From Paraflavitalea sp. CAU 1676 (lineage in GTDB: Bacteria > Bacteroidota > Bacteroidia > Chitinophagales > Chitinophagaceae), in NCBI RefSeq assembly GCF_029223285.1, contig NZ_JARHUJ010000001.1, forward strand, positions 310,001 to 374,000: 64,000 nt of DNA. Reading direction: 5' to 3'. The notes beneath the pieces are model-generated. The model did not search any database. It was not told the DNA's origin and saw only the letters and a program-made list of their open reading frames with translations. Position 1 is the first letter of the stretch, and every line of letters begins with the position of its first letter. The translations under genes were made by a program, and so were the position numbers. Positions 7,068 through 25,176 of the stretch are shown piece after piece.

Positions 7068-8585
7068 ATGAAATTCAACATCAGTCTCCGCAGGAAAGTT
7101 CCTGCTCAAAACTACGAAGGGGCAAAGGCCTTTGTGCTAACACCGGAAATGGAATTGTACACAGCCGTGGTGACCACTGCGTTGAGTGATCAATTCTACG
7201 AAGGAAGTGCGGAACGCCTGGAAAGGATCCGGGTTTTGATCTCCATCTGTGACGCGGCATTTGTAGCGAGGCTCGCCGTGTATGCACGGGAAGTTTTGAA
7301 CCTGCGGAGTATTCCGCTGGTACTTACGGTAGAACTGGCCCGAATTCACCAGGGGGATACCTTGGTGAGCCGGCTCACCGGAAGAGTTGTACAGCGTGCC
7401 GATGAAATCACTGAAATGCTGGCTTTGTATGGGCAAGCCAATAGGCGTAAAGGGAGAAAGCAATTGAACAGGCTGAGTAAACAAGTGCAGCGGGGATTGG
7501 CGACAGCCTTCAATAAGTTTGATGAGTACCAGTTTGGCAAGTACAACAGGGGCGCTCAGGTAAAACTGAAAGATGCCTTGTTCCTGGTGCATCCGCGAGC
7601 CAGCGATGAATCACAGCAAGCCTTATTTGACAAGATCGCGCAGGATACCCTTGCGAACCCATATACCTGGGAGGTGGAATTGAGCGCACTTGGTCAACTG
7701 CGCTATGTGAATGATGAGGTTAAGCGTTCTGCGTTTACAGAAAAGTGGGAGGAGTTGATCTTCAGCAAGCGACTGGGTTATATGGCCACGTTGCGCAACC
7801 TACGCAATATTCTTGAAGCAGACGTGTGTGTTGAGGCGATAGACAAGGTTTGTGCGTACCTGGCCGATCCGGTTGCTGTGGCAAAAAGCAGGCAGCTTCC
7901 TTTCCGGTTCCTGAGCGCCTGGCGGGAATTGAAACTGGTGCAACATGGTATGGTTGGAAAAGTGCTGGAGGCATTGGAGAGCGCAGTCCAACATAGTGCT
8001 GCGAACATAGCCGGGTATGATGAAAAAACTGCAGTGGTTATCGCTGCCGACGTTAGCGGTAGTATGCAGAAGCCGGTGAGTGCCAGGAGTAAAGTGCAGT
8101 TGTTTGATGTTGGTCTGATGCTGGCGATGTTGTTACAGTACAGGTGCGCGAATGTTGTTGCAGGTATGTTTGGCGATACCTGGAAAGTGATCCCGGTTCC
8201 CCGCAACCAGGTGTTGAGGAATGTGGATGAGTTGCATCGTCGGGAAGGGGAAGTAGGTTACAATACCAATGGCTTCCTGGTAATCAAAGATCTATTGCAG
8301 CAAAAACGTAGGGTAGATAAAGTAATGCTCTTTACGGATTGCCAGTTGTGGAATAGCCATGGAAGCGCGGAGCATATTGAAGATCTGTGGAAACAGTACA
8401 AGCGTATAGCGCCGCTTGCAAAATTGTACCTGTTCGATCTTGCGGGGTATGGAAATGCTCCGTTACGGATACAGAACAACGATGTATATCTGGTAGCGGG
8501 ATGGAGTGACAAGATCTTCGACGTATTGGATGCTATAGAACGCGGTGAAGATGCTTTGAAACTGATCGGTTCTATTGAGCTATAA
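7068..8585 (+). CDS. rsr: Ro60/Rsr-like TROVE domain RNA-binding protein
   Basis: A 505-residue Ro60 orthologue. The N-terminal TROVE module of helical repeats (about residues 15-310) normally forms a ring that holds misfolded RNA ends in its hole and Y RNA on its outer face. The C-terminal von Willebrand A domain (about 320-500) has the MIDAS metal motif DVSGSM and later Thr and Asp residues (GYNTNG, LFTDCQ). Known bacterial Ro proteins act in RNA quality control, stress survival and, with PNPase, RNA decay. The start is backed by GGGAGG at 7054-7059, 8 bp before ATG. Downstream are a DinB-fold gene, a tRNA array, an AAA ATPase and rtcB, a layout comparable with the Salmonella rsr-yrl-rtcBA RNA-repair operon. 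Family assignment is firm; targets here are inferred to be the array RNAs. Confidence 0.93.
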   Translation: MKFNISLRRKVPAQNYEGAKAFVLTPEMELYTAVVTTALSDQFYEGSAERLERIRVLISICDAAFVARLAVYAREVLNLRSIPLVLTVELARIHQGDTLVSRLTGRVVQRADEITEMLALYGQANRRKGRKQLNRLSKQVQRGLATAFNKFDEYQFGKYNRGAQVKLKDALFLVHPRASDESQQALFDKIAQDTLANPYTWEVELSALGQLRYVNDEVKRSAFTEKWEELIFSKRLGYMATLRNLRNILEADVCVEAIDKVCAYLADPVAVAKSRQLPFRFLSAWRELKLVQHGMVGKVLEALESAVQHSAANIAGYDEKTAVVIAADVSGSMQKPVSARSKVQLFDVGLMLAMLLQYRCANVVAGMFGDTWKVIPVPRNQVLRNVDELHRREGEVGYNTNGFLVIKDLLQQKRRVDKVMLFTDCQLWNSHGSAEHIEDLWKQYKRIAPLAKLYLFDLAGYGNAPLRIQNNDVYLVAGWSDKIFDVLDAIERGEDALKLIGSIEL

Positions 8586-9233: not shown

Positions 9234-9306
9234 ATAGCAGCATTCCAATTGGTTGGATACTTCGCCTGGAACGAAGAGGATGCAGGTTCGAGTCCTGCCT
9301 GCTATA
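9234..9306 (+). tRNA. tRNA-like gene, anticodon TGG (Pro-like)
   Basis: Acceptor ATAGCAG/CTGCTAT (7 bp), D arm with loop AATTGGTT, anticodon stem CTTCG/CGAAG, loop CCTGGAA, T stem GCAGG/CCTGC, T loop TTCGAGT. By position the anticodon is TGG (9267-9269) with A73. Position 33 is C instead of the near-universal T, and position 8 is C instead of T. CCA is not encoded (CAA follows). Confidence 0.8.
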
Positions 9307-9320
9307 CAAAAGAGAAATAA

Positions 9321-9391
9321 GGTCTGTTCGTCTAATGGTAGGGCCCGGGACTTTCTATCCTGAGACAGGGGTTCGATTCCCCTACAGACTT
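9321..9391 (+). tRNA. tRNA-Glu (TTC)
   Basis: Acceptor GGTCTGT/ACAGACT with a G-T first pair, D arm in the Glu style (GTCTAATGGTA), anticodon stem CGGGA/TCCTG, loop CTTTCTA with anticodon TTC at 9353-9355, T stem AGGGG/CCCCT, T loop TTCGATT. Discriminator T where Glu tRNAs usually have G. CAA follows in place of CCA. Confidence 0.85.
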
Positions 9392-9392
9392 C

Positions 9393-9463
9393 AAGCGTGT
9401 CGTAGACCAGTGTTACTTCGTCTTGAAACCGATATATGGACACTGTTCGTTTGTTACCGCTTT
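9393..9463 (+). ncRNA. Decayed tRNA-like or Y-like RNA segment
   Basis: Between two good tRNAs. Outer pairing AAGCG (9393-9397) / CGCTT (9458-9462), a D-like arm GTAG/TTAC, and TTCGTTT near the T-loop position suggest a tRNA that has lost its anticodon and T stems. An alternative fold pairs CAGTGT (9408-9413) with ACACTG (9440-9445), giving a long hairpin with paired ends, as in Y RNAs that bind Ro60. I cannot decide between them. Confidence 0.4.
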
Positions 9464-9467
9464 TCCT

Positions 9468-9538
9468 AGTCTATTAGTGTATGGGTAACGCCCCGGATTG
9501 TCGATCCGGAGAAACGGGTTCGAGTCCCGTATAGACTG
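9468..9538 (+). tRNA. tRNA-Asp (GTC)
   Basis: Acceptor AGTCTAT/ATAGACT, anticodon stem CCGGA/TCCGG, loop TTGTCGA with anticodon GTC at 9500-9502, T stem ACGGG/CCCGT, T loop TTCGAGT. Discriminator G, as expected for bacterial tRNA-Asp. CGA follows in place of CCA. A GTN anticodon of the queuosine type. Confidence 0.9.
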
Positions 9539-9553
9539 CGATATTCCTTATCT

Positions 9554-9627
9554 GGCGACCTGGTGTAATGGTAGCATGTTACCCTCATAAGGTAATCGTT
9601 CCGGTTCAAGTCCGGAGGCCGCAACCA
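9554..9627 (+). tRNA. tRNA-Met-like (CAT), CCA encoded
   Basis: Anticodon stem TTACC/GGTAA, loop CTCATAA with anticodon CAT at 9586-9588, T stem TCCGG/CCGGA, T loop TTCAAGT. The acceptor GGCGACC/GGCCGCA has two mismatches, including G1-A72 and A5-C68. Discriminator A, then CCA at 9625-9627, the only unit here with a full CCA. CAT could also be an Ile2 tRNA read after lysidine modification. The initiator-type G-C run in the anticodon stem is absent. Confidence 0.8.
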
Positions 9628-9629
9628 AC

Positions 9630-9702
9630 TGGCCTGTAGCTCAATGGTGAGAGCGGTTGCCTTATACGCAAATGGTTGTGGGTTCGATCCCCGCCAGGCC
9701 AA
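9630..9702 (+). tRNA. tRNA-Ile (TAT)
   Basis: Acceptor TGGCCTG/CAGGCCA (7 perfect pairs), D stem GCTC/GAGC, anticodon stem with four of five pairs, loop CTTATAC with anticodon TAT at 9663-9665, T stem GTGGG/CCCGC, T loop TTCGATC. A73 fits Ile. Anticodon TAT is rare in bacteria, which normally read ATA with lysidine-modified CAT. It begins 2 bp after the CCA of the preceding unit. Confidence 0.82.
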
Positions 9703-9705
9703 CAA

Positions 9706-9779
9706 TACCGGGTAGTGTAACCGGCCCAACATATCACACTTTGACTGTGATGTTCTCAGTTCGAGTCTGAGCCCGGTAT
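9706..9779 (+). tRNA. tRNA-Gln (TTG)
   Basis: Acceptor TACCGGG/CCCGGTA (7 perfect pairs), anticodon stem TCACA/TGTGA, loop CTTTGAC with anticodon TTG at 9741-9743, T stem CTCAG/CTGAG, T loop TTCGAGT. The D arm is weak. Discriminator T instead of the usual G. Only 3 bp separate it from the unit before. Confidence 0.85.
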
Positions 9780-9788
9780 CTGTTTTAT

Positions 9789-9861
9789 GTTGTCTTTAGT
9801 TTATCTGGCAAAATACCTCACTGTGAATGAGGAGTACAGGGTTCGAGCCCCGAAGACAACC
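9789..9861 (+). tRNA. tRNA-His (GTG)
   Basis: Acceptor GTTGTCT/AGACAAC, anticodon stem CCTCA/TGAGG, loop CTGTGAA with anticodon GTG at 9823-9825. The discriminator is C, the His-specific identity base, but position -1 is T rather than an encoded G. The T stem (CAGGG/CCCGA) has only three good pairs. A queuosine-type anticodon. Confidence 0.82.
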
Positions 9862-9865
9862 GAAA

Positions 9866-9936
9866 CGGCTTATAGTTCAACGGAAGAATAGTACGCTACG
9901 AACGTACAGATAGAAGTTCGAGTCTTCTTAAGCCGT
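9866..9936 (+). tRNA. tRNA-Arg (ACG)
   Basis: Acceptor CGGCTTA/TAAGCCG, D stem GTTC/GAAT, anticodon stem GTACG/CGTAC, loop CTACGAA with anticodon ACG at 9898-9900 (the inosine-edited bacterial form), T stem AGAAG/CTTCT, T loop TTCGAGT. Base 73 is T and could extend the acceptor by pairing with A at 9865. Confidence 0.87.
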
Positions 9937-9950
9937 CTACAAGTGCCGTA

Positions 9951-10062
9951 AGGAAAAGTTACTTCGACTGGGATGCAAAGGTCATAGGTTCGAATCCTAT
10001 AGCCGGCAGGAATGCTGGACTTGGCGCAGGGGTAGCGCATTGTACGAAAAAAAGCTTTTCCT
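9951..10062 (+). tRNA. Circularly permuted tRNA-Pro-like gene (TGG)
   Basis: The 3' half (9967-10008) lies upstream of the 5' half (10014-10044), joined by GGAAT. Reading 10014-10044 then 9967-10008 gives a 73-nt tRNA. The acceptor has seven pairs, with G10014 pairing C10007 and T10021 pairing A10001, and one bulged A. T8 and G9 follow, then D stem GCGC/GCGC with loop AGGGGTA, anticodon stem TTGTA/TGCAA, variable loop AGGTC, T stem ATAGG/CCTAT, T loop TTCGAAT and A73. The 7-nt loop would be ACTGGGA, anticodon TGG. The outer flanks continue the anticodon helix: CGAA (10045-10048) with TTCG (9963-9966), then CTTTTCCT (10055-10062) with AGGAAAAG (9951-9958). That places the anticodon loop as a bulge beside a 4-bp helix, much like archaeal splicing sites. 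RtcB, encoded downstream, could join such ends. Seen: the pairings. Inferred: processing. Confidence 0.72.
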
Positions 10063-10078
10063 GATTGTTGCCTTGTTT

Positions 10079-10149
10079 GGGAATATAGTTCAATGGCAGA
10101 ACGCTCCGCTGTTAACGGAAGAATGGATGTTCGACTCATCCTGTTCCCG
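10079..10149 (+). tRNA. tRNA-Asn (GTT)
   Basis: Acceptor GGGAATA/TGTTCCC, D stem GTTC/GAAC (perfect), anticodon stem CTCCG/CGGAA with one mismatch, loop CTGTTAA with anticodon GTT at 10111-10113, T stem GGATG/CATCC, T loop TTCGACT. Discriminator G fits Asn. A queuosine-type anticodon. Confidence 0.88.
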
Positions 10150-10161
10150 CGAATATTTTAT

Positions 10162-10233
10162 GGACGAATAGCTCCAATGGTAGAGCAGCCCGTTGAAGCC
10201 GGGTGTGTACAAGTTCGAATCTTGTTTCGTCCA
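10162..10233 (+). tRNA. tRNA-Phe-like (GAA)
   Basis: Acceptor GGACGAA/TTCGTCC (7 perfect pairs), D stem GCTC/GAGC, anticodon stem GCCCG/CGGGT, loop TTGAAGC giving anticodon GAA at 10095 + 100 (10195-10197), T stem ACAAG/CTTGT, T loop TTCGAAT. A73 fits Phe. The loop bases 37-38 (GC) are atypical. Confidence 0.8.
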
Positions 10234-10239
10234 CAACCT

Positions 10240-10312
10240 GCGGGTTTGATGTAATTGGCTAACAATCCGGACTCCAAATCCGGCCATGGAGGTTCGAATC
10301 CTTCAACCCGTG
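10240..10312 (+). tRNA. tRNA-Trp (CCA)
   Basis: Acceptor GCGGGTT/AACCCGT, D stem with three pairs around AATTGGCT, anticodon stem CCGGA/TCCGG, loop CTCCAAA with anticodon CCA at 10274-10276, T stem GGAGG/CCTTC, T loop TTCGAAT. Discriminator G fits Trp. It is the last unit, 51 bp before the AAA ATPase gene. Confidence 0.87.
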
Positions 10313-10363
10313 CTTTAAAACAATGTATATGCGCACTCTTGTAATGAAATAGGCAGTGTTAAG

Positions 10364-11503
10364 ATGTATTGCCCGGTATGCCTGCCGGTGCCGAATCAAC
10401 AACTGTTTAACTATTTCAATCTTACATCAATGGACAAGGCTATTGAACAGCGCGTTATCAGCGCTAATAGCGTATTTGGCAGGTACTTTATCGACTGCCA
10501 GGCTTTATATATGTATTGCTTCACTTCTATCCCGAGCATCAGCTATGTGGATGATATTGAAGGTGAAACCGCATTTGATGCCTTTCGTGAGCAATATAAG
10601 GATCATATTTCTTCGGTACACACCTACCGGTGGATCAGGCGCAAGGATAAGGATGTGGAGTTTGATGACACCGTTGTCATTCTCCATGATCGATGTGTGC
10701 TTGAGTTCGGCGAGGGATATTGCAAGATCCTTCATAATGAGGAACGAAAGGAGTTCACTTCCGGGCTTATCAGCTATTTACGGGGCTTTAAAGAAAAGCA
10801 AAGAAGAAAGCCCCTTGAGATCAACCTTATTGTCAAGAGCGGCAATTATCTTGAACTCAAAGCCATGGAGATCAAGCGGACAAAACTGGACCTGCGCCTA
10901 TTCTATGAAGACGACTTTAAAGCGGTGGATGAAAATATCCGCAAACGTCTGAATCAAAAGGACGACAAAGGCATCGTGTTATTGCACGGTTTGCCAGGGT
11001 CGGGGAAGACTACTTACCTGAGGTATCTGGTGGGGAGAATCAAAAAGAAGGTGTTGTTCCTTTCTCCCAATATTGCGTGTAGTCTGACTGATCCTGATTT
11101 TATTGATCTGCTGATCGATAACCCCAATAGCGTGGTCATTATCGAAGATGCTGAAAATGTGATCATGGACAGGCGAAGCAATCCGCAATCATCTGTTTCG
11201 AACCTGTTGAACATATCTGATGGGCTATTGTCCGACTTCCTGAATGTTCAGCTGGTATGTACTTTCAACAGTTCAGTGGCAATGATCGACCAGGCGTTGA
11301 TGCGGAAAGGGAGATTGATTGCCCGGTATGAATTCGGTAAATTGAGTATTCAAAAATCCCAGCAGCTTAGCAATCACCTGGGATTTGATAACGTTATTAA
11401 TCAGCCTAAGACCATTGCCGAAATAGCCAATCCCCACGAGGAGGCTTACCAGTCTCCGCAGGTTCAGGTTATCGGTTTCAGGAGGGCTGTTATTGAAAAT
11501 TAA
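10364..11503 (+). CDS. BCS1-like AAA ATPase
   Basis: A 379-residue AAA protein of the BCS1-like type. The N-terminal region (about 1-185) is family-specific. The ATPase core has Walker A GLPGSGKTT near residue 209, Walker B SVVIIEDAE near 252, and an Asn-containing sensor 1 (CTFNSS) followed by an arginine-finger region with MRKGRLIARYEF. Mitochondrial BCS1 is a translocase; bacterial relatives are uncharacterised but are probably ring-forming remodelers. It lies 5 bp before rtcB and directly after the tRNA array, so it may unfold or deliver damaged RNA or RNP. Start alternatives are 10364 and the internal Met at 10430; the first 22 residues look unlike a domain, so 10430 is quite possible. 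Confidence 0.85.
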   Translation: MYCPVCLPVPNQQLFNYFNLTSMDKAIEQRVISANSVFGRYFIDCQALYMYCFTSIPSISYVDDIEGETAFDAFREQYKDHISSVHTYRWIRRKDKDVEFDDTVVILHDRCVLEFGEGYCKILHNEERKEFTSGLISYLRGFKEKQRRKPLEINLIVKSGNYLELKAMEIKRTKLDLRLFYEDDFKAVDENIRKRLNQKDDKGIVLLHGLPGSGKTTYLRYLVGRIKKKVLFLSPNIACSLTDPDFIDLLIDNPNSVVIIEDAENVIMDRRSNPQSSVSNLLNISDGLLSDFLNVQLVCTFNSSVAMIDQALMRKGRLIARYEFGKLSIQKSQQLSNHLGFDNVINQPKTIAEIANPHEEAYQSPQVQVIGFRRAVIEN

Positions 11504-11508
11504 AGAGT

Positions 11509-12957
11509 ATGGCAAAGTTAAAATTGAAAGGAAAAGAATTGAGAGCGATCGGTTATCCGGAAGGTCCGGTGATCAGCATTGCTATGCATTTAATGGAACG
11601 TAACTATAAGCATCATACAGGGGAGCAGGCGCTTGAAATATTGAAACGTGTGCTGGATGCTCCCGGCGAGTTCCTGGCAGATGAGGTGTTGGCGCCTATT
11701 GCGGAACAGCTGATGCCCAAGCCCGAGCCGGAAGGTGAGGATATTCCGCTGAATCAGACCGGGGTGCAGTACAATGTATTTGGTGGTGAGTTTATTGAAT
11801 CCGGCGCGATGAACCAAATGAACCAGGCTGCCAGGCTACCTGTATCGGTTGCCGGTGCCCTGATGCCTGATGCCCATGCGGGTTATGGACTGCCGATCGG
11901 TGGTGTGCTTGCTACGGAAAATGCTGTGATTCCCTATGGCGTAGGCGTGGATATCGGTTGCAGGATGTGTTTGTCTGTTTTCGACATCGATCCTAAGGAG
12001 CTTACTCAGCGGGAAAGCTATTTCACCCGAGAGTTGAATGAGGCTACTTTATTTGGTAGCGGACGGCAATTTGACGTGATGAGTGAGCATGCAGTGATCG
12101 ATCGTCCGGAGTTTGATGATCTGCCGATCCTGAAAAGCTTGAAAGACAGGGCTGCACGGCAGCTTGGCTCTTCGGGTTCCGGAAATCATTTTGTGGAATT
12201 CGGGATCGTTGAAATAATAGATAAAGATGTTCAGCTTGGTATTGAGCCCGGTGTTTATCTTGGTTTGCTGAGCCATTCGGGGTCTAGAGCGCTGGGGGCT
12301 AATATTGCTAACCATTATACCCGAGTGGCCAAAGACAAAAGGCGTTTGCCTGGCGAAGCCCATAACCTGGCCTGGTTGAGCATGGATGAACAGGAAGGTA
12401 TTGAATATTGGTTGGCCATGAACCTGGCCGGCGATTATGCAAGTGCCTGTCATCATATTATCCATGCGAAGATCGCGAAGCAGTTGGGACGTCAGCCGTT
12501 GAAGATGGTAGAAAATCACCACAATTTTGCCTGGAAGGAAATGTATGAAGACCGGGAGGTGATCGTGCACCGGAAAGGGGCGACCCCGGCAGGGAAAGAT
12601 GTATTGGGTATTATCCCCGGGTCCATGACTGCCCCTGGTTTCATTGTAAAGGGGAAAGGTGAAGCTGCGTCATTATTCTCCGCTTCGCATGGTGCCGGAA
12701 GAAAGATGAGCCGTACGGCTGCACTGAACTCCATCACCAAAAATGCTTTAAATGACATGTTAACCAAGCATGGTGTAAAGCTCCTGGGTGGTGGTTTGGA
12801 TGAAGCGCCTCATGCCTATAAGGACATTCATACCGTGATGAACGCGCAACAGCATCTTGTGGATACTGTAGGGGCGTTCTATCCGAAGATCGTGAAGATG
12901 GATGGTACAGCTCCCAAGCCCTGGATGAAGAAGGGGCAGGATATTGTGGGAGAGTAG
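11509..12957 (+). CDS. rtcB: RNA-splicing ligase RtcB
   Basis: A 482-residue RtcB. The enzyme joins RNA 2',3'-cyclic phosphate or 3'-phosphate ends to 5'-OH ends using GTP and Mn2+; in archaea and animals it is the tRNA-splicing ligase. Family motifs are visible: MPDAHAGYGLPIGGV, the metal site GVGVDIGCRM with the key Cys, SGSGNHFVEFG, HSGSR, ENHHNFAW, HRKGATPA, and the guanylylated His region SASHGAGRKMSR. No rtcA is present, so ends with plain 3'-phosphate would rely on RtcB itself. It is the last gene of the Ro60-tRNA-AAA set. Candidate substrates are the adjacent tRNAs after anticodon cleavage, and the permuted tRNA. Confidence 0.96.
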   Translation: MAKLKLKGKELRAIGYPEGPVISIAMHLMERNYKHHTGEQALEILKRVLDAPGEFLADEVLAPIAEQLMPKPEPEGEDIPLNQTGVQYNVFGGEFIESGAMNQMNQAARLPVSVAGALMPDAHAGYGLPIGGVLATENAVIPYGVGVDIGCRMCLSVFDIDPKELTQRESYFTRELNEATLFGSGRQFDVMSEHAVIDRPEFDDLPILKSLKDRAARQLGSSGSGNHFVEFGIVEIIDKDVQLGIEPGVYLGLLSHSGSRALGANIANHYTRVAKDKRRLPGEAHNLAWLSMDEQEGIEYWLAMNLAGDYASACHHIIHAKIAKQLGRQPLKMVENHHNFAWKEMYEDREVIVHRKGATPAGKDVLGIIPGSMTAPGFIVKGKGEAASLFSASHGAGRKMSRTAALNSITKNALNDMLTKHGVKLLGGGLDEAPHAYKDIHTVMNAQQHLVDTVGAFYPKIVKMDGTAPKPWMKKGQDIVGE

Positions 12958-17729: not shown

Positions 17730-18245
17730 ATGAGCAGTAATGGAACCATAAAGAAGTGGTATGCGATCTATACCAAGCCCCGATGGGAGAAGAAGGTCTA
17801 TGGCCTTTTGTTGGAAAAGGGGGTAGAGTGCTATTGCCCATTGAATAAGGTGCACCGTAAATGGAGTGACCGGATAAAAGTTGTGGAAGAGCCTCTCTTC
17901 AAGTCCTATGTTTTTGTGCGTGTTACCGAAGATGATAAAACGCCTGTTAGGATGGTAGATGGGGTAGTAAATTTTGTGTACTGGGAGGGCAAGCCGGCGA
18001 TCATCAAGGATAAAGAAATACTAACAATTCGCAAGTTCCTAAGCGACTTTGAAGATGTGGAGGTTCGGCAAATCAATCTTGCCGCAGAGGATACGGTTGT
18101 CATTCAACAAGGCGTATTGATGGGGAAAAAAGGTACCGTTAAACGCGTGCTGCGCAAAAAAGTCGAGGTTTTGATTGAAAGCATTGGATTTACATTAACA
18201 GCTTATATCGACAAATCAAAAATCGGGGTGATTGAAAAACAATAG
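17730..18245 (+). CDS. UpxY-family NusG-like transcription antiterminator
   Basis: A 171-residue NusG paralogue. The NGN domain (about residues 8-100) opens with KKWYAIYTKPRWEKKVYGLL and ends near the family-typical FKSYVFVRV segment; a KOW-like domain (about 118-170) has VVIQQGVLMGKKGTVKRV. In Bacteroides, UpxY proteins bind RNA polymerase and let it read through long capsule operons. It is the first gene of a locus of about 34 kb transcribed in one direction, and lies behind a 300-nt leader with a terminator-like hairpin, just as expected. The likely regulation is locus-specific antitermination. Confidence 0.9.
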   Translation: MSSNGTIKKWYAIYTKPRWEKKVYGLLLEKGVECYCPLNKVHRKWSDRIKVVEEPLFKSYVFVRVTEDDKTPVRMVDGVVNFVYWEGKPAIIKDKEILTIRKFLSDFEDVEVRQINLAAEDTVVIQQGVLMGKKGTVKRVLRKKVEVLIESIGFTLTAYIDKSKIGVIEKQ

Positions 18246-18273
18246 AATCGATAAATACCTTAAAACGATCTTC

Positions 18274-19077
18274 ATGCAACGCCTATCAGGCATCATTTTG
18301 ATGGCATTTGTAATCCTACTGGCTAGTTCTTGTGGCAATGTTAAGAATCTTCAGTACGTGCAGGGCAGTTTCGACACGGCGAGGTTAAGCAAAGTTCAGT
18401 TTACCGATCCGGTCATTCAAACCGGCGATTTGTTGGGTATAACTTTATTCAGTGACGATGCCAGTGCAACGGCTGCTGTATCAGGCCAGCCGATAGCCTT
18501 GGATATTGATGCGAAGAGCACGAAACCTGAACTATTTAATGATAACCCTGCCAAGAGCTCTACCGGCTACCTGGTTAGCCATGATGGATTTATTCAGCTG
18601 TATAAAATTGGCAGGATACAGGCAGCTGGAATGAGCAAAAGACAATTGGCCGATACGCTGGCTGGGCGTTATGTTGCGTTGGACCTTTTAAAGAATCCTT
18701 ATGTTGAGGTTCGCTTCCTTAACTATAAAGTGACTTTGGTTGGTGAGGTAAGCCGGCCGGGCGTATACAGTTTTCCCACTGAAAAGATCAGCATCTTTGA
18801 CGCCATTGGCCTGGCCGGAGACATTACGGTATACGGGAAGCGGGATAATGTCATGGTTGTACGGGAAGTTAATGGTGTGCGCCAGTTTGCTCAACTAGAC
18901 CTTAGTAAACCAGAGGTATTCGCATCTCCCTATTATTATCTGCAGCAAAATGATATGGTGATTGTGGACGTGACCAAGAAGAAGGCTGCGTTAAATGACC
19001 AGGCTACGGTTCGAAATATCACTATTGCCACCAGTATTTTAGCAACTATAGCAATCTTCATCAATATATTCAATTAA
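18274..19077 (+). CDS. Polysaccharide export lipoprotein (Wza-like)
   Basis: A 267-residue outer-membrane polysaccharide export protein (Poly_export plus SLBB domains). I start at ATG 18274, which opens with a lipoprotein signal (IILMAFVILLASSCGN); an upstream TTG at 18232 is possible but would overlap upxY and add a non-signal extension. The family core is seen: IQTGDLLGITLFSDD, YLVSHDGFIQLYKIGRI, and VTLVGEVSRPGVYSFPTEKISIFDAIGLAGDI-type SLBB residues. A C-terminal hydrophobic segment (about 245-263) could be the outer-membrane helix. It partners with the BY-kinase gene 2 bp downstream. Confidence 0.9.
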   Translation: MQRLSGIILMAFVILLASSCGNVKNLQYVQGSFDTARLSKVQFTDPVIQTGDLLGITLFSDDASATAAVSGQPIALDIDAKSTKPELFNDNPAKSSTGYLVSHDGFIQLYKIGRIQAAGMSKRQLADTLAGRYVALDLLKNPYVEVRFLNYKVTLVGEVSRPGVYSFPTEKISIFDAIGLAGDITVYGKRDNVMVVREVNGVRQFAQLDLSKPEVFASPYYYLQQNDMVIVDVTKKKAALNDQATVRNITIATSILATIAIFINIFN

Positions 19078-19079
19078 CC

Positions 19080-21473
19080 ATGGTAGAAGAGATTTTAGAA
19101 CCAAAACGGTCGAGGCTTTCAATTACGCCCCGTGAGATCATCTTTAAGTACATCCGGTACGTGCCATGGTTGATCGTTTCGGTAGTGATCATGCTGGCTG
19201 CCGCTTATTTGAAGCTGCGCTACTCCACACCAACCTACAATGTTTCTGGTAAACTGTTGGTCAACAGTCAGACCCCTTATAGCAATGCCGGCGAGAAGTT
19301 TGACGACATCTTTATGATGCAGAAGGCTGATAAGTTAAATGATGAGATTGAGATCATTAAATCCCGTTCAATGGCCAGTCGGGTGGTTCGAAGCCTTGGC
19401 CTGGAAATGCAAGTTAATAACAAAGGAAAGATTCGTTCTACCATTATTCACCCGGAGGAGGTTCCTTTTGATTTTGAAATCGTTTCTGCTGATTCCCTGA
19501 AAGGTTTTGGCATCTTGATCACTATACTGAATGATAATCAGTTCAGGATTAATGAAGCTCCCCAAACATACAATTTTAATGAAGCGGTTGAGGTCGGTGG
19601 TGTTCGCTTTCGTCTTAGAGGAGGTAATTCAGATCGGTTAGGGTTTGCGAGTAACGAGTTCAACGTAAGTTGGGTACCAACGGAAAGTATGGCTGCTATG
19701 TTGAGCGGCTCGATCGGTGTAGGGCGAGTTGGTGAAGGAACAAATGTCTTAAGCATTTCCTATCAAACAGAAAATATCAGACTGGGCAATGATATTGTTA
19801 ATCAATACATGAGAGAATATCAACTGGCCAGTCTGGAAGACAAGCGGGAAATTGCCGGCAAAACGCTTTCATTTATTAATAGTCAGTTGGATACAGTATA
19901 CCGGGAGTTGAAGGGAGTGGAGTTCAATCTGCAGAATTACCGGCAGAAGAACCAGGTTTATAGTGCTGAAGCCCAGGCAAACTTATTGTTCAATGAATTA
20001 TCGGAGAGCAATAAAGAAATAGTCCAACTTGGTATGAAGCTCAAATGGATCGACTACAATATTGCCTACCTTTCTGATAGGCGTAATGAGCACCAGATCA
20101 TTTCTGCTATGTTGGGAGCTGAAGAACCTGCGTTGATGGAGCAGGTGAGTGCCTTTAATAAACTGCAACTTGACCGATCGACTGCGTTGATTACGATCCC
20201 GGCCGGCAACCCTACCATCGTCAAGATGGATGCCGCCATCGAAAAATTGCGTAGTGACATGATATCGAATATGAGGAATGTGCGCCAAACTTATACGCTG
20301 GCTTTGGACGAATTACAACGTCAAAACCGTAGTGCAGGTGGTGTGATCAGCACAATTCCATCGAAGGAAAAGCAATTGTTGGAGGTGACCAGGCAACAGG
20401 CAATCTTGCAAGAGTTGTATTCTTACCTGCTGCAGAAAAAACTCGAAACAGCGTTGGCGTCTGCGTCTACCATTTCCAGTATTAAAGTGGTGGAGTCGGC
20501 GATTTCGAATGGTATTCCTGTAAGCCCCAATCGGAAGGGATTGTATATCATGGCTATCCTTTTAGGGATAGCAATTCCGGTGGGCATTGTATTTCTGTTG
20601 GAATACCTGAACGATAAGGTTAAAAGTAAAAATGATATACAGCAAATTACCGATGCTCCCATTCTCGGGGAAGTTGGGCATGCCGACCAGGCTGGAGCTC
20701 TTGTAGTTACCAGTAATAACCGGAAATTTTTGGCTGAACAATTCAGGATCATCCGTTCGAATCTGCAATACATTTTACCGAAGGTTGAAAAGCCGGCTAT
20801 TCTGGTTACCTCTTCATTTAGTGGTGAAGGGAAGTCTTTCATCAGCACCAATCTGGGCTCAGTACTTGCCTTGTCGGGCAAGCGGACGGTGATCCTGGAG
20901 TTTGATATCAGGAAGCCAAAGATCCTTAAGGGATTGGGACTTCATGAAAGAAAAGGTATCACAAACTATATAGTAAGTTCGATCAAGCTGGACGAGGTGA
21001 TTACTCCTGTGCCCGGTGTAGATAACCTTTTTGTGATCCCTTGCGGACCTGTTCCGCCAAACCCCGCCGAAATGCTTCTGGATGAGCGGATCGATCAATT
21101 GTTCAAGGAATTGAGGAGCCGCTTTGATGTTATCATTGTGGATACTGCCCCAGTAGGCCTTGTAAGCGATGCGATTTCTCTCGGACGCCATGTGGACGCC
21201 ATTGTATACATAGTTCGTCATAATTATACGTTGAAAAAGCAGATCCAGTTGATCGATGATATTTATGTGAATAATAAATTACCACACGCCTCTATCATTA
21301 TTAATGATATTACCAAGCAAGGTGGTTACGGGTATTATGGCTACGGTGGTTATGGCTATGGCTATGGATATGGCTATGGTTATGGAAAAGAAGGCACGAG
21401 CTATTTTGATAGTGAAGATGGCCGTAAGCGTTCCGGTTGGAAGAAATGGGTTTCGTTTTCTAAAAAAGACTAA
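19080..21473 (+). CDS. Chain-length determinant / BY-kinase (Wzc-like)
   Basis: A 797-residue inner-membrane protein combining a Wzz domain with a bacterial tyrosine kinase. Membrane segments lie near residues 30-47 and 490-510, with a long coiled periplasmic part between. The cytoplasmic kinase has Walker A SSFSGEGKSF, a Walker A' (ILEFDIRKPK) in which the usual Asp-Ala before the second Asp is changed to Glu-Phe, and Walker B VIIVDTAP. The tail is a Gly-Tyr run (about residues 745-770), the autophosphorylation cluster, with about eleven Tyr in alternation with Gly. A PHP-type phosphatase at 51227-51967, at the far end of the locus, is the likely antagonist. Together they should cycle to control polymer length and export. 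Confidence 0.92.
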   Translation: MVEEILEPKRSRLSITPREIIFKYIRYVPWLIVSVVIMLAAAYLKLRYSTPTYNVSGKLLVNSQTPYSNAGEKFDDIFMMQKADKLNDEIEIIKSRSMASRVVRSLGLEMQVNNKGKIRSTIIHPEEVPFDFEIVSADSLKGFGILITILNDNQFRINEAPQTYNFNEAVEVGGVRFRLRGGNSDRLGFASNEFNVSWVPTESMAAMLSGSIGVGRVGEGTNVLSISYQTENIRLGNDIVNQYMREYQLASLEDKREIAGKTLSFINSQLDTVYRELKGVEFNLQNYRQKNQVYSAEAQANLLFNELSESNKEIVQLGMKLKWIDYNIAYLSDRRNEHQIISAMLGAEEPALMEQVSAFNKLQLDRSTALITIPAGNPTIVKMDAAIEKLRSDMISNMRNVRQTYTLALDELQRQNRSAGGVISTIPSKEKQLLEVTRQQAILQELYSYLLQKKLETALASASTISSIKVVESAISNGIPVSPNRKGLYIMAILLGIAIPVGIVFLLEYLNDKVKSKNDIQQITDAPILGEVGHADQAGALVVTSNNRKFLAEQFRIIRSNLQYILPKVEKPAILVTSSFSGEGKSFISTNLGSVLALSGKRTVILEFDIRKPKILKGLGLHERKGITNYIVSSIKLDEVITPVPGVDNLFVIPCGPVPPNPAEMLLDERIDQLFKELRSRFDVIIVDTAPVGLVSDAISLGRHVDAIVYIVRHNYTLKKQIQLIDDIYVNNKLPHASIIINDITKQGGYGYYGYGGYGYGYGYGYGYGKEGTSYFDSEDGRKRSGWKKWVSFSKKD

Positions 21474-21490
21474 TCTTTTAACAGATCACT

Positions 21491-22330
21491 ATGAGTGGTG
21501 TAACTGAAGAACTGATCATTGAAGCAGGACGAGCGGAGAAGAACTATTGGAGAGATATCTGGCGGTACCGGGAACTGTTCTATATTCTTAGCTGGAGGGA
21601 TATAAAAGTACGGTATAAACAAACCGTCATTGGTGCTGCCTGGAGTGTAATACGCCCTCTGCTCACCATGCTGATCTTTACTTTTGTGTTTGGTCAACTT
21701 GGCAGGCTGGCACAACCTGGTGGTGCTCCCTACCCGATCATTGTATTTGCCGGCCTTCTGCCCTGGCAATTCTTTTCAACTGCCCTGTCCGAAGCGAGTG
21801 GCAGCCTTGTGGGAAACGCGAACCTGATCACTAAGGTTTATTTCCCCCGCCTGATCATTCCTGCCAGTTCAATCATTGTAAGCTTCGTTGATTTCGCCAT
21901 TTCCTTTTTGTTGCTGGTTGCGGTTATGCTGTTCTACCAGTACCTGCCGCCGTTGCAAGTGCTCTTATTGCCGGTTTTTATCCTGATTGCTTTCCTGATC
22001 TCCTTTGGCGTGGGATTGTATGTAACTGCGCTCAATGTGAAGTATCGTGATTTCAGGTATGTTATACCTTTTATCGTTCAGTTGGGTATCTATATTACAC
22101 CTGTGGGTTATAGTAGCACTGAAATTGTGAACAGGTATTCGGAACAGGCCAGGTTCTGGTATTCATTGAATCCCATGGTAGGCGTTATCGATGGTTTCCG
22201 CTGGTGCATTACCGGCGAACCGATGTACTGGCCGGGATTATTGTTGTCGATCGTTATTACCTTTTTCTTTTGCCTGATCGGCATTCGATATTTCCGGAAA
22301 ACTGAAAAATCTTTTGCAGATAATATTTAA
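21491..22330 (+). CDS. Polysaccharide ABC transporter permease (Wzm-like)
   Basis: A 279-residue ABC-2 type permease with six membrane helices and the family opening YRELFYILSWRDIKVRYKQTVIGAAWSVIRPL. It exports undecaprenyl-linked O-antigen-like or teichoic-type polymers together with the ATPase encoded 5 bp downstream. Its presence with a Wzc/Wza-type pair is notable because those normally serve other export routes. Confidence 0.92.
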   Translation: MSGVTEELIIEAGRAEKNYWRDIWRYRELFYILSWRDIKVRYKQTVIGAAWSVIRPLLTMLIFTFVFGQLGRLAQPGGAPYPIIVFAGLLPWQFFSTALSEASGSLVGNANLITKVYFPRLIIPASSIIVSFVDFAISFLLLVAVMLFYQYLPPLQVLLLPVFILIAFLISFGVGLYVTALNVKYRDFRYVIPFIVQLGIYITPVGYSSTEIVNRYSEQARFWYSLNPMVGVIDGFRWCITGEPMYWPGLLLSIVITFFFCLIGIRYFRKTEKSFADNI

Positions 22331-22335
22331 AGAAT

Positions 22336-23577
22336 ATGTCAAACCCCGTCATAAAAGCGGAGCACCTTTCGAAGAAGTTTATTTTGTCGCACGAGACACA
22401 GGAGCGGTATACGTCGCTGCGGGATGTGCTTTCGCGTAAAGCTAAAGGGTTATTGGGGAACGGGAAGAAACCTGCTGGTAGCATAGAAGAGTTTAAGGCG
22501 CTCGATGATGTCAGTTTCGAGATCTATCAAGGCGACCGGGTTGGGATCATTGGCAGAAACGGCGCCGGAAAAAGCACGTTACTGAAAGTGCTGAGCCGAA
22601 TTACTGAACCTTCCAGCGGATCTATAACTATACGTGGCCGTGTTGCTTCTCTTCTTGAGGTTGGAACCGGCTTTCATCCTGAATTGTCGGGGCGTGAAAA
22701 TATCTTTCTCAACGGTGCGATCCTTGGCATGAGCAGAACAGAGATCAGGAAAAAGTTTGATGAGATCGTTGCTTTTGCGGAAGTCGAGAAGTTTCTGGAT
22801 ACTCCGGTGAAGCGCTATAGCAGTGGGATGTATGTACGGCTGGCTTTTGCAGTGGCGGCACATCTCGAGCCGGAAATTCTTATTGTCGACGAAGTGCTGG
22901 CCGTTGGTGATGCCCAGTTTCAGAAGAAATGTCTGGGTAAAATGGAAGATGTGAGTAAGAATGAGGGCCGCACAGTTTTGTTTGTGAGCCATAATATGGG
23001 TGTGATCTCTCAATTGTGCAAAAAGGCGATCCTTTTAAGCAAAGGAAGATTGATCCAAACCGGTGAAACGCGGAAAGTGATAGACAATTATGTATTGAAT
23101 ACCCAGGCCAATTCTAACTCTTACGAAGTAAAGCCTGGTATCGACAAGAATCAAAAGCGGATCTATTTCTCCAGGGTGTCGACCCTGAATACGGACGGCG
23201 TTGCTTGCGAAGACTTCCAGTTTGATCAGAATATCGTTTTAGATATCGGCCTTGTGATCACTCAATATGATCATGCAGCCAAGATATCCTTTACTCTACA
23301 AAATAATAACGGAGACTACCTGTCTACTTTTGTCGAGGACCTGAGCAGGTTTTATAATGGTAAAGAAGAAGCATCATTTAAGATCAAAGTCCCTTCGCAT
23401 GTCATTGCTCCCAACACGTATGCTTTCAGGCTGGCTATTTTTCTACCCCACGGTACTACCTATGACCTGGTTGAAATGATCTGTCCGATAAGGATCCACG
23501 ATTCGGGAACAGATATGGCTATGTTTGAAGGAGCGAATTATGGTAGTTTCTTTCTGAACTACGAGGTGCTTTCTTAA
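22336..23577 (+). CDS. Polysaccharide ABC transporter ATPase with C-terminal domain (Wzt-like)
   Basis: A 413-residue Wzt-type ATPase. The nucleotide-binding domain (about 1-240) has Walker A GRNGAGKSTLLK, signature YSSGMYVRLAF, Walker B ILIVDEVLAVGD and the H-loop (FVSHN). A C-terminal beta-sandwich domain (about 265-410) matches the region that in Wzt proteins recognises the finished polymer's end modification, so the exported glycan probably carries a terminal cap. It follows the permease gene by 5 bp. Confidence 0.93.
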   Translation: MSNPVIKAEHLSKKFILSHETQERYTSLRDVLSRKAKGLLGNGKKPAGSIEEFKALDDVSFEIYQGDRVGIIGRNGAGKSTLLKVLSRITEPSSGSITIRGRVASLLEVGTGFHPELSGRENIFLNGAILGMSRTEIRKKFDEIVAFAEVEKFLDTPVKRYSSGMYVRLAFAVAAHLEPEILIVDEVLAVGDAQFQKKCLGKMEDVSKNEGRTVLFVSHNMGVISQLCKKAILLSKGRLIQTGETRKVIDNYVLNTQANSNSYEVKPGIDKNQKRIYFSRVSTLNTDGVACEDFQFDQNIVLDIGLVITQYDHAAKISFTLQNNNGDYLSTFVEDLSRFYNGKEEASFKIKVPSHVIAPNTYAFRLAIFLPHGTTYDLVEMICPIRIHDSGTDMAMFEGANYGSFFLNYEVLS

Positions 23578-23643
23578 CTTCTGACGGTTCAACCCGATGG
23601 GACCGCTTTTTAGAGGATATAATTGCTGCAAATCGAATAATCA

Positions 23644-24255
23644 ATGGGTTTTCTACGTTCAATTGCAAGGAGAGTAGTCAATGTATTCAGGGCCCCGGTT
23701 CGCCCGGCTTACCTGGATCTTGTTGAGCGAGGCTACCTAAAGGTTGGTAAAGACTGTAACCTGGATGGGGCGAATTTCGTCCTTGTGTGCCAGGAGCCAG
23801 GAACTACTTATATCGAAATTGGAGATAAATGCTGCATCAGAGGGACTTTGATGCTATACCGGCAAACCTCGAGAATTTTCATTGGCAATAATGTATATAT
23901 TGGTCCTGGTACGCTGCTTGAATGTGTTGAGGAGATCAGGATGGGTAATGATATCCTGGTGTCTTTGAATTGCAATATTATTGATACGAATTCCCACTCA
24001 CTTCATTCGGCTGAGCGGCTGGATGATACTATAGACTGGCAGAAAGGACTTGCATTTAAGAACTGGGATGTGGTAAAGTCGAAAAAGGTAATCATTGAAG
24101 ACAAATGTTGGATCGGATTGAGGAGTATCGTCATGAAAGGGGTGACATTGGGTGAGGGTACCGTCGTTGGTGCTGGTTCTGTTATTACCAAGAACACCGA
24201 GCCCTTTTCCATCATGGCGGGGAACCCCGCAGTTTTGGTACGGAAAGGCGATTAA
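23644..24255 (+). CDS. Left-handed beta-helix acyltransferase
   Basis: A 203-residue protein with hexapeptide repeats over residues 30-195 (IGDKCCIRG, IGNNVYIGPG, IEDKCWIGLRSIVMKGVTLGEGTVVGAGS), ending in the usual AGNPAVLVRKG. It probably adds acetyl groups to a sugar of the polymer. It begins 66 bp after wzt and precedes a sugar-nucleotide enzyme by 12 bp. Confidence 0.85.
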   Translation: MGFLRSIARRVVNVFRAPVRPAYLDLVERGYLKVGKDCNLDGANFVLVCQEPGTTYIEIGDKCCIRGTLMLYRQTSRIFIGNNVYIGPGTLLECVEEIRMGNDILVSLNCNIIDTNSHSLHSAERLDDTIDWQKGLAFKNWDVVKSKKVIIEDKCWIGLRSIVMKGVTLGEGTVVGAGSVITKNTEPFSIMAGNPAVLVRKGD

Positions 24256-24267
24256 CTGTTTGATGGA

Positions 24268-25176
24268 ATGAAAATATTAATACTTGGTTCGGAAGGATTC
24301 ATTGGCCGGCATTTAGCCGAGAGTGCTACAAAGCAAGGCTGGTCGGTTGTAGGATGTGACCTTATCGAGGCGGGCGCAACAGCCTACCAGTACCACAAGA
24401 TCTCCCTGCTATCAGCCGACCTGGAGTTGCTGTTTTCGGAGCATGAATATGATTTTTGTATCAATGCGGCTGGCAGTGGTAGTGTTCCTTATTCATTGAC
24501 CCATCCGTTAAGTGATTTTGAAGCTAATGTGTCTTCAGTCATCCATGTTCTGGAGGCCATAAGAAGATCTAATCCTTCCTGCTGTTATCTGCATATTTCC
24601 AGTGCCGCGGTTTACGGCAATCCTGGCCAATTACCCATTAAGGAATCGGATCCGCTGGGACCACTGTCTCCCTATGGTTGGCATAAAAAGATATCAGAAC
24701 AATTGTGCCTCGAATATTTCCAGCAGTTTGGAATTCGATCTGCCATTACGAGGCCTTTTTCTGTATATGGTCCTGGACTGCGAAAGCAATTGTTTTGGGA
24801 TGTTTGTCAGAAGTTATTAAAAGCGCAGGGTTCCCTTGAGCTATGGGGTACCGGCAAGGAGAGCCGTGATTTCATATATGTGGAAGACCTCGTGCAAGCT
24901 ATCTGGAGCATTCTGGAGAAAGGCGAGATGCAGGCAGAGATATATAATGTTGCCACTGGTGTGGAAACCACTATAGAAGATGTTGTGCGTTTGTTTGTTG
25001 AAGCGCTGAAGAAGGACGTCAAGGTGATTTTTAATCAGAAGGTAAGACCTGGTGACCCACTTCATTGGCGGGCGGATATCTCACGGCTATCGGATCTGGG
25101 TTTTAGTCCCCGATTTTCGCTGGGAGGTGGCATCGAGGCAACGGCTAAATGGATTAGCGCGTTTTCTCAACAATAA
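24268..25176 (+). CDS. NAD-dependent epimerase/dehydratase (extended SDR)
   Basis: A 302-residue extended short-chain dehydrogenase. The nucleotide site is ILGSEGFIGRHLA at the N-terminus; the catalytic Tyr-x3-Lys is YGWHK near residue 138 with the Ser of HISSAAVYG upstream; the substrate part shows TRPFSVYGPG and GKESRDFIYVEDL, as in UDP-glucose or UDP-GlcNAc epimerases and related dehydratases. The exact sugar nucleotide cannot be told by eye. It supplies or modifies a precursor for the surrounding glycosyltransferases. Confidence 0.85.
   Translation: MKILILGSEGFIGRHLAESATKQGWSVVGCDLIEAGATAYQYHKISLLSADLELLFSEHEYDFCINAAGSGSVPYSLTHPLSDFEANVSSVIHVLEAIRRSNPSCCYLHISSAAVYGNPGQLPIKESDPLGPLSPYGWHKKISEQLCLEYFQQFGIRSAITRPFSVYGPGLRKQLFWDVCQKLLKAQGSLELWGTGKESRDFIYVEDLVQAIWSILEKGEMQAEIYNVATGVETTIEDVVRLFVEALKKDVKVIFNQKVRPGDPLHWRADISRLSDLGFSPRFSLGGGIEATAKWISAFSQQ

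Follow-up and report, generated by a model that had tools for sequence, protein, structure and literature searches.

Does the 64-kb stretch of DNA analyzed here (the window) contain a circularly permuted proline tRNA gene, as suggested by an earlier note on its sequence, or do the tRNA-like parts belong to a different kind of RNA? The element in question, at positions 9943 to 10078, presents the pieces of a tRNA in the wrong order among ordinary tRNA genes. We conclude that it is very probably a small non-coding RNA, namely a YrlA-type Y RNA and likely partner of the Ro60 protein encoded upstream, and, judging from sequence comparison, that it is probably not a working proline tRNA gene.

Genomic context of the element

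The gene for the Ro60 protein (7068..8585; Pfam TROVE, E = 6.5e-22) is located 1.4 kb upstream of the element, and a DinB-like gene is also annotated upstream. The element itself is embedded in an array of 11 ordinary tRNA genes (9234..10313; 11 Rfam matches and 10 ARAGORN calls) that is followed by genes for an AAA ATPase (10364..11503; Pfam AAA, E = 3.7e-9) and for the RNA ligase RtcB (11509..12957; Pfam RtcB, E = 1.1e-81); the Ro60 gene, the array and the latter two genes are all on the forward strand. The array also contains a second Y RNA on the same strand (9397..9462), between the genes for tRNA-Glu and tRNA-Asp, which consists of a basal stem and flanks as in the main element but has no tRNA body. 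This simpler RNA is matched at 44.3 bits (E = 7.9e-9 in the window) by R1, the covariance model with 40 training rows that was used in the searches for relatives, and relatives of it are present in loci L001 (11383), L002 (11180) and L135 (8408-8471).

The anticodons identified by ARAGORN at 9321-10313 are those of tRNAs for Glu, Asp, Met, Ile, Gln, His, Arg, Asn, Phe and Trp. These are mostly two-codon amino acids, and ordinary genes for them are found elsewhere in the genome; in the case of Ile, the other gene has the anticodon GAT and the array copy has TAT. Elsewhere in the window (17730-25176), inspection by eye of the list of open reading frames revealed an apparent polysaccharide export cluster that includes genes for a chain-length tyrosine kinase-like protein, an ABC transporter pair, an acyltransferase and epimerase-like proteins.

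Architecture of the element

The pairings from which a permuted tRNA had been proposed, namely those of the acceptor, the anticodon stem, the CGAA/TTCG helix and the outer helix, are all present in the window, on the forward strand. The outer helix is an 8-bp basal stem formed by AGGAAAAG (9951..9958) and CTTTTCCT (10055..10062); it presumably binds Ro60, and downstream of its 3' strand comes a TTGTTGCC-like tail that is conserved in part. As seen from its relatives, the element extends through conserved flanks beyond 9951-10062, to 9943 and to approximately 10078. Next to the 5' strand of the stem lies the motif TTACTTCG (9959..9966), recognized from per-base conservation in 40 relatives, and TTCG at 9963-9966 forms four pairs with CGAA at 10045-10048. 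Further inward, the element contains the anticodon-loop-like segment ACTGGGA (9967..9973; 7 nt, with C at position 33 in the permuted-tRNA register); TGCAA (9974..9978), the 3' side of an anticodon-like stem, which makes five pairs here with TTGTA at 10040-10044; a T arm (9984..10000); an acceptor-like hairpin (10001..10021, in which 10001-10007 pairs with 10014-10021, with one bulged base and a loop at 10008-10013); and a D arm (10024..10038). Joining 10044 to 9967 indeed leaves the 7-nt loop ACTGGGA with the triplet TGG.

A descriptor that combines the T arm, the acceptor hairpin, the D arm and five out of five anticodon pairs matched a single place in the window, the element, and had no matches on either strand in 100 dinucleotide shuffles of the window; because the descriptor was written after the element had been seen, this result measures rarity and yields no formal probability. 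On the comparison with the shuffled windows, a chance fold was rejected, and the scan and the coordinates of the pairings together confirm that the two pieces fold as one tRNA body in permuted order. The energy of the single-sequence fold is mildly low (z = -1.79, with 9 of 200 shuffled sequences equally good), so that energy alone would not have revealed the element. No tRNA was called at the element by ARAGORN or by the Rfam tRNA model at its cut-off; below the cut-off, the Rfam model matched the T arm only (15.3 bits). An ordinary intact tRNA overlooked by ARAGORN was also considered and ruled out because the pieces are in the wrong order.

Relationship to the YrlA family

The Rfam model of YrlA (RF02553), which is independent of our alignment of 40 relatives, spans its full length (1-114 of 114) at positions 9950-10066 of the window, with 26 bits and an E-value of 5.9e-4 for 139 nt. 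This score is far below the curated cut-off of 69 bits, which is a score line and not a biological feature; therefore, we refer to the element as being of the YrlA type and do not file it as a member of RF02553. When 15 further loci, drawn from the 16 other Ro60 loci of the survey of family genomes, were scanned with the same model, 20 sub-threshold matches were detected in 12 of the 15, the best with 54.4 bits (E = 1.8e-9), and none exceeded 69 bits. Three features of the YrlA type are nevertheless in place: a Ro60 gene nearby, the 8-bp basal stem, and the T, acceptor and D arms inside that stem. R1 assigns 90.6 bits to positions 9943-10076, a score that is not independent given that the window element is one of the 40 training rows.

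In YrlA, as described in the accessible portion of the literature, the basal stem holds Ro60 and a separate domain is similar to tRNA in its D, T and acceptor arms (PMC8394870). A fold in which these three arms are enclosed by a stem is, by construction, a tRNA in permuted order, which shows how claims of the kind considered here can originate. Furthermore, the rsr-yrlBA-rtcBA operon of Salmonella is reported to bring together Ro60, Y RNA and RtcB (PMC7790460). Such a grouping is thus already known, and the nearby RtcB gene, previously read as a sign of splicing, is no argument for tRNA splicing.

Conservation and covariation among relatives

Ro60 loci came from a scan of genome contigs with the protein, in which the best 80 of 300 were kept, and from a survey of family genomes. 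An anchored scan, which requires the basal-stem motif and then the T arm, the acceptor hairpin and the D arm, yielded 192 matches in 98 sequences, compared with 1 match after mononucleotide shuffling; the 98 sequences include duplicate genomes (L081 is the same as the window, and L082/L002 and L084/L005 share elements), and a few of the 192 matches, such as some on the minus strand, seem accidental. Two other scans were set aside as too loose: the first permuted-tRNA scan (95 matches versus 7 after mononucleotide shuffling), which partly captured junctions of neighboring ordinary tRNAs, and a motif scan for basal stems alone (467 versus 128 in shuffled sequences), which is unsuitable for copy counts. 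Among the 192 anchored matches, 111 were kept that have a loop segment of 11-21 nt, at least five acceptor pairs, and a D loop that starts with A and holds GG; removal of duplicates left 106, represented by 55 sequences at 80%. The 3' end was found for 50 of the 55 representatives, 11 of which were dropped by hand as odd or divergent; with L081 swapped for the window and a neighboring element (L083, 3773) added, the alignment comprises 40 rows.

In this alignment, where the selection by hand favors clean pairing, 90.0% of the cells pair in the proposed structure, compared with 64.0% in column shuffles and 31-47% when slid. Both sides are changed in 302 cells (101 in column shuffles) and in 23 of the 27 pairs (18.8 in shuffles). 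The basal stem is paired in 89.6% of the cells, with five of six pairs changed on both sides, and the acceptor hairpin in 91.8%, with seven of seven; the T and D arms are paired in 99.5% and 99.4% of the cells, respectively, and the D stem is almost invariant. The basal, T and acceptor stems are maintained as pairs, with covariation. Conversely, the sequences GTGYCGTA and TACTTC are nearly or fully invariant in the 40 diverse relatives, the bodies of which differ widely; within TTACTTCG, TACTTC is found in 40 of 40 rows, the last G in 39 of 40 and the first T in 29 of 40. The idea that all the proposed helices would be kept in relatives holds for the basal, T, D and acceptor stems but fails for the outer three pairs of the anticodon stem, which form in about half of the 40, and the CGAA/TTCG helix is not general, CGAA being present in the 3' part of 5 of the 40 rows.

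Some of the loci contain other variants of the same theme. In a number of candidates (for example, L007 10574, L004 8005, L071 2010 and L080 8379), the point at which the Y stem opens the body seems to be the D loop rather than the anticodon, and the whole anticodon arm is kept; the scan for such forms gave 18 distinct candidates, a count that has no shuffled control and includes several doubtful cases. Y stems with the same flanks also enclose a different insert (L010 10746, L079 10725, L013 11413, L076 10899), which runs from a GGGGAGGAATAGCG-like sequence to GCCCC, contains a TTCGA hairpin and shows no obvious tRNA.

The anticodon region and the fit to a tRNA

Each of the two core pairs of the anticodon stem is maintained in 38 of the 40 relatives, mostly by compensation, and the outer three, on which an anticodon loop would depend, form in 20 of 39, 21 of 39 and 21 of 37. 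The third pair (20 versus 12.6 in column shuffles, with 13 of 5000 shuffles as high) and the fourth (21 versus 14.1, 33 of 5000) are above chance, and the fifth is at chance (21 versus 20.7). Thus, a subset of the relatives, the window element included, keeps a longer stem that the family at large does not need. In the 55 unselected representatives, the first two pairs are present in 50 and all five in 11, among them the window element, where two variable-loop lengths were tried for both counts and the better one was taken. Between CTTCG and the stem lies a segment of 1 to 11 nt, which is 7 nt long in 12 of the 55.

This segment often resembles an anticodon loop: in the 38 representatives that have the 17 nt needed to define loop positions (a 5-nt variable loop being assumed), T33 is found in 29 and a purine at position 37 in 32. 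The loop triplet fits the isotype of the body in 2 of the 38, against 2.0 expected by chance, the window element (Pro) being one of the two; in the control, with Leu, Ser and Tyr excluded, 78 of 182 real tRNAs from these loci fit, against 12.6 by chance. The test, which takes the tRNAs of one genome as its reference, is noisy. A subgroup of 37 orthologues has a pyrimidine at position 37 in 31 members, and its triplet varies among those that have a common stem and mostly a common acceptor.

tRNAs have U at position 33. In the window element, the joined arm forms five pairs and a 7-nt loop with G37, and the body is Pro-like; position 33, however, is C. When the anticodon arm is masked, the top three matches to the body among the tRNAs of the genome are the three Pro tRNAs; unmasked, Pro-GGG ranks first, and Ala-GGC and Pro-CGG are tied for second place. 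The likeness to tRNA-Pro is thereby borne out, and this resemblance suggests that the body was probably derived from tRNA-Pro; an alignment to tRNA-Pro(GGG) would change the triplet from TGG, with C33, to GGG, with T33.

Ordinary tRNA-Pro genes with the anticodons TGG, CGG and GGG are present in the genome. A search for the splicing endonuclease domain (PF01974) gave no match in this genome and was positive in the 4 archaea among 14 control genomes. The junction, a 7-nt bulge beside four pairs, differs from the bulge-helix-bulge motif, which is given as 3-4-3 in the available text on permuted tRNA genes (PMC3978253); with this geometry and no PF01974 match, the suggestion that the junction recalls the archaeal splicing motif is not supported.

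Association with Ro60 across genomes

A TROVE protein is encoded in 17 of 244 genomes drawn from the family. Full-length R1 matches of at least 75 bits were detected in 16 of these 17 genomes and in 1 of the 227 genomes without Ro60, where the 75-bit line was set after the scores had been seen and at least 10 of the genomes gave training rows; of the seven Ro60 genomes without a training row, six have an R1 match of at least 75 bits. At E = 0.001 or better, 100 of the 244 genomes have a match, and many of these matches are partial and confined to the tRNA-like portion, as ordinary tRNA genes would be expected to give. In the genome analyzed here, R1 produced two full-length matches at E = 0.01 or better (9943-10076 and 9397-9462) and three partial ones. 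Among 55 held-out Ro60 loci, many of which come from closely related Chryseobacterium, 53 contain a full-length R1 match of at least 57 bits; the exceptions are L072 (49.7 bits) and L075, a 3.5-kb contig with none among the matches listed. All 224 R1 matches listed in the held-out loci are on the Ro60 strand, with the partial ones looking like ordinary tRNAs.

The association has its exceptions. G185 encodes Ro60 but has no strong R1 match, the best one listed being partial, with 52.2 bits, and in G114 the two best copies are far from Ro60, with weaker copies (54.4 and 51.5 bits) beside it. The Y RNAs of G114 away from Ro60 are at L137 7486-7602 and L138 7008-7359, and in G089 copies are likewise found on stretches away from Ro60.

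Two genomes of the same genus are of particular relevance. In G085, the gene order is as in the window (response regulator, DinB, array, AAA ATPase, RtcB, phosphoesterase), and there is no TROVE match in the genome. The tRNA-Arg and tRNA-Asn genes that flank the element in the window are 8 nt apart in G085, with no element between them, but two such RNAs are retained elsewhere in the array: one with 112.2 bits between Asp and Met and a simple one between Glu and Asp (both within L135 8408-8691, the stem-only one at 8408-8471). G214 has part of the array, the AAA ATPase and RtcB, and neither Ro60 nor a strong R1 match. In L001, from a metagenome-assembled genome of Niastella sp. that encodes the most similar Ro60 (78% identical), an element occupies the same Arg-Asn site but has a very different body. 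The site being empty in G085 and holding another body in L001, the element appears as a separate unit that can be gained or lost and can exchange its body while the array around it is otherwise stable; such behavior is more in keeping with a Y RNA than with a tRNA gene that the cell requires. The pair of same-genus genomes, one with and one without Ro60, also lends itself naturally to asking whether Y RNAs depend on Ro60.

The array with the AAA ATPase and RtcB (9234-12957) seems to be a separate module for spare tRNAs and RNA repair. The AAA protein has matches, some of them weak, in 88 of the 244 family genomes at E = 0.001 or better, far above the 17 with Ro60. The combination of array, AAA ATPase and RtcB was also observed in genomes without Ro60 (L143, L144 and L145).

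Alternative explanations and possible function

If the element were a permuted tRNA-Pro gene, the transcript would be cut at 9966/9967 and 10044/10045, the body closed into a circle by RtcB, the acceptor loop opened by RNase P and RNase Z, and CCA added. The permuted order, the complete set of pairings, the 7-nt loop with TGG on five paired bases, the body that is closest to tRNA-Pro and the RtcB gene nearby all are compatible with such a pathway, as are the longer than random anticodon stem in a subset of relatives and the frequent T33 and purine 37. Nevertheless, we consider it very unlikely: C replaces U at position 33, the acceptor is bulged, the anticodon stem is not regularly kept among relatives, the junction loop varies in length, CGAA is rare, and the loop triplets do not fit the bodies, in a genome with three normal Pro genes, no match to the splicing endonuclease and a junction bulge of a different form. 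There is no indication here that the body is cut out and used in translation. More improbable still is a functionless, degenerate leftover of tandem tRNA-Pro copies that survived by chance; an array is a row of tRNAs, the body is tRNA-Pro-like and the Arg-Asn spacer of G085 is empty, as such an origin would allow, but decay does not account for the conservation of GTGYCGTA and TACTTC, for the compensatory changes in the basal, T and acceptor stems, or for the association with Ro60.

A third reading retains the Y-RNA-like scaffold but assigns it a main partner other than Ro60, namely RtcB, the AAA ATPase or the tRNA array. It draws on G085, which keeps two intact elements by the array, AAA ATPase and RtcB without a TROVE protein, and on the much wider distribution of the AAA protein; G214, which has part of the array, the AAA ATPase and RtcB but neither Ro60 nor a strong R1 match, and the strongly skewed distribution of R1 matches toward Ro60 genomes both speak against it, and we regard it as unlikely. 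The points that count against a YrlA-type Y RNA are the Rfam score of 26 against 69 bits, the exceptions to the Ro60 link in G085, G114 and G185, the subset of relatives with a longer anticodon stem, and the frequent T33 and purine 37 of the loop.

As a YrlA-type Y RNA, the element would work as follows. The basal stem, formed by the 5' and 3' ends, would hold Ro60, by analogy with YrlA elsewhere, and its loop carries a tRNA body with its opening at the anticodon and a closed acceptor end. According to the pairing seen in comparison, this body consists of the T arm, the acceptor hairpin, the D arm and the two core anticodon pairs. Such a body may dock tRNA-recognizing proteins or a nuclease such as PNPase, tethered to Ro60; alternatively, it could compete with real tRNAs, for example, for a nuclease. 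For a YrlA-type RNA, one would expect binding by Ro60 and a body that docks on PNPase or undergoes modification by TruB and DusA. One possibility offered in the available text on YrlA is that it acts as a competitive inhibitor of an anticodon nuclease (PMC7790460). The composition of the island and the analogy with YrlA elsewhere suggest a role in RNA damage, shared with the spare tRNAs of the array and with the RtcB encoded next to it. More speculatively, and less likely than not, the Y RNAs of Bacteroidota may have expanded into sets of tRNA mimics whose permuted bodies differ and open at either the anticodon or the D loop, many of them with an anticodon-like loop; located among spare tRNAs and beside RtcB, they would serve as decoys or sensors for tRNA-cutting nucleases and in some genomes outlive Ro60.

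The analysis removes an attractive but probably wrong claim, that of the first permuted tRNA gene in bacteria. It also points to a Bacteroidota branch of Y RNAs that escaped the Rfam cut-off at all the loci scanned. Its copy number, its varied bodies, the candidate D-loop-open forms and its survival without Ro60 in one genome give this branch moderate interest.

Comparison with known systems

By 2014, according to the accessible text of one account, 34 permuted tRNA genes were known, in six unicellular algae and one archaeon (PMC3978253). The element shares with these genes the placement of the 3' half before the 5' half and the closure of the acceptor end by a short linker. It differs in having no bulge-helix-bulge junction, in residing in a genome with no match to the splicing endonuclease, and in belonging to a family with an irregular anticodon stem and an anticodon that does not fit the body.

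In Anabaena, TrcR is reported to repress a stress-induced tRNA operon, rtcB and a gene for an AAA ATPase, with translational stress relieving the repression (PMC10272220). As far as the available text describes it, that system likewise couples an array of spare tRNAs to RtcB and an AAA ATPase in function. Its tRNA operon is plasmid-borne and its rtcB gene chromosomal, whereas here all of these genes form one island, and neither Ro60 nor Y RNA is mentioned by name in the available text (PMC10272220).

No description of the element was found in the portions of the literature searched on Ro60 and Y RNA, permuted tRNAs, and tRNA arrays with RtcB, which is no proof of novelty. Simple Y RNAs without a tRNA domain, such as YrlB, also exist. 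The stem without a body at 9397-9462 may be likened to these in architecture.

The closest known counterpart is the YrlA-type Y RNA, with which the element shares the basal stem formed from both ends, the tRNA-like D, T and acceptor arms, and the adjoining Ro60 and RtcB genes. The differences are the score below the cut-off, the anticodon-loop-like segment that often follows 3' of the stem motif, and the opening of some candidates at the D loop; moreover, many loci here hold more than one copy, the bodies of these copies differ, and the element is embedded among tRNA genes. What looks new, then, is the Bacteroidota branch, with several Y RNAs per locus and diverse bodies within an array of tRNA genes.
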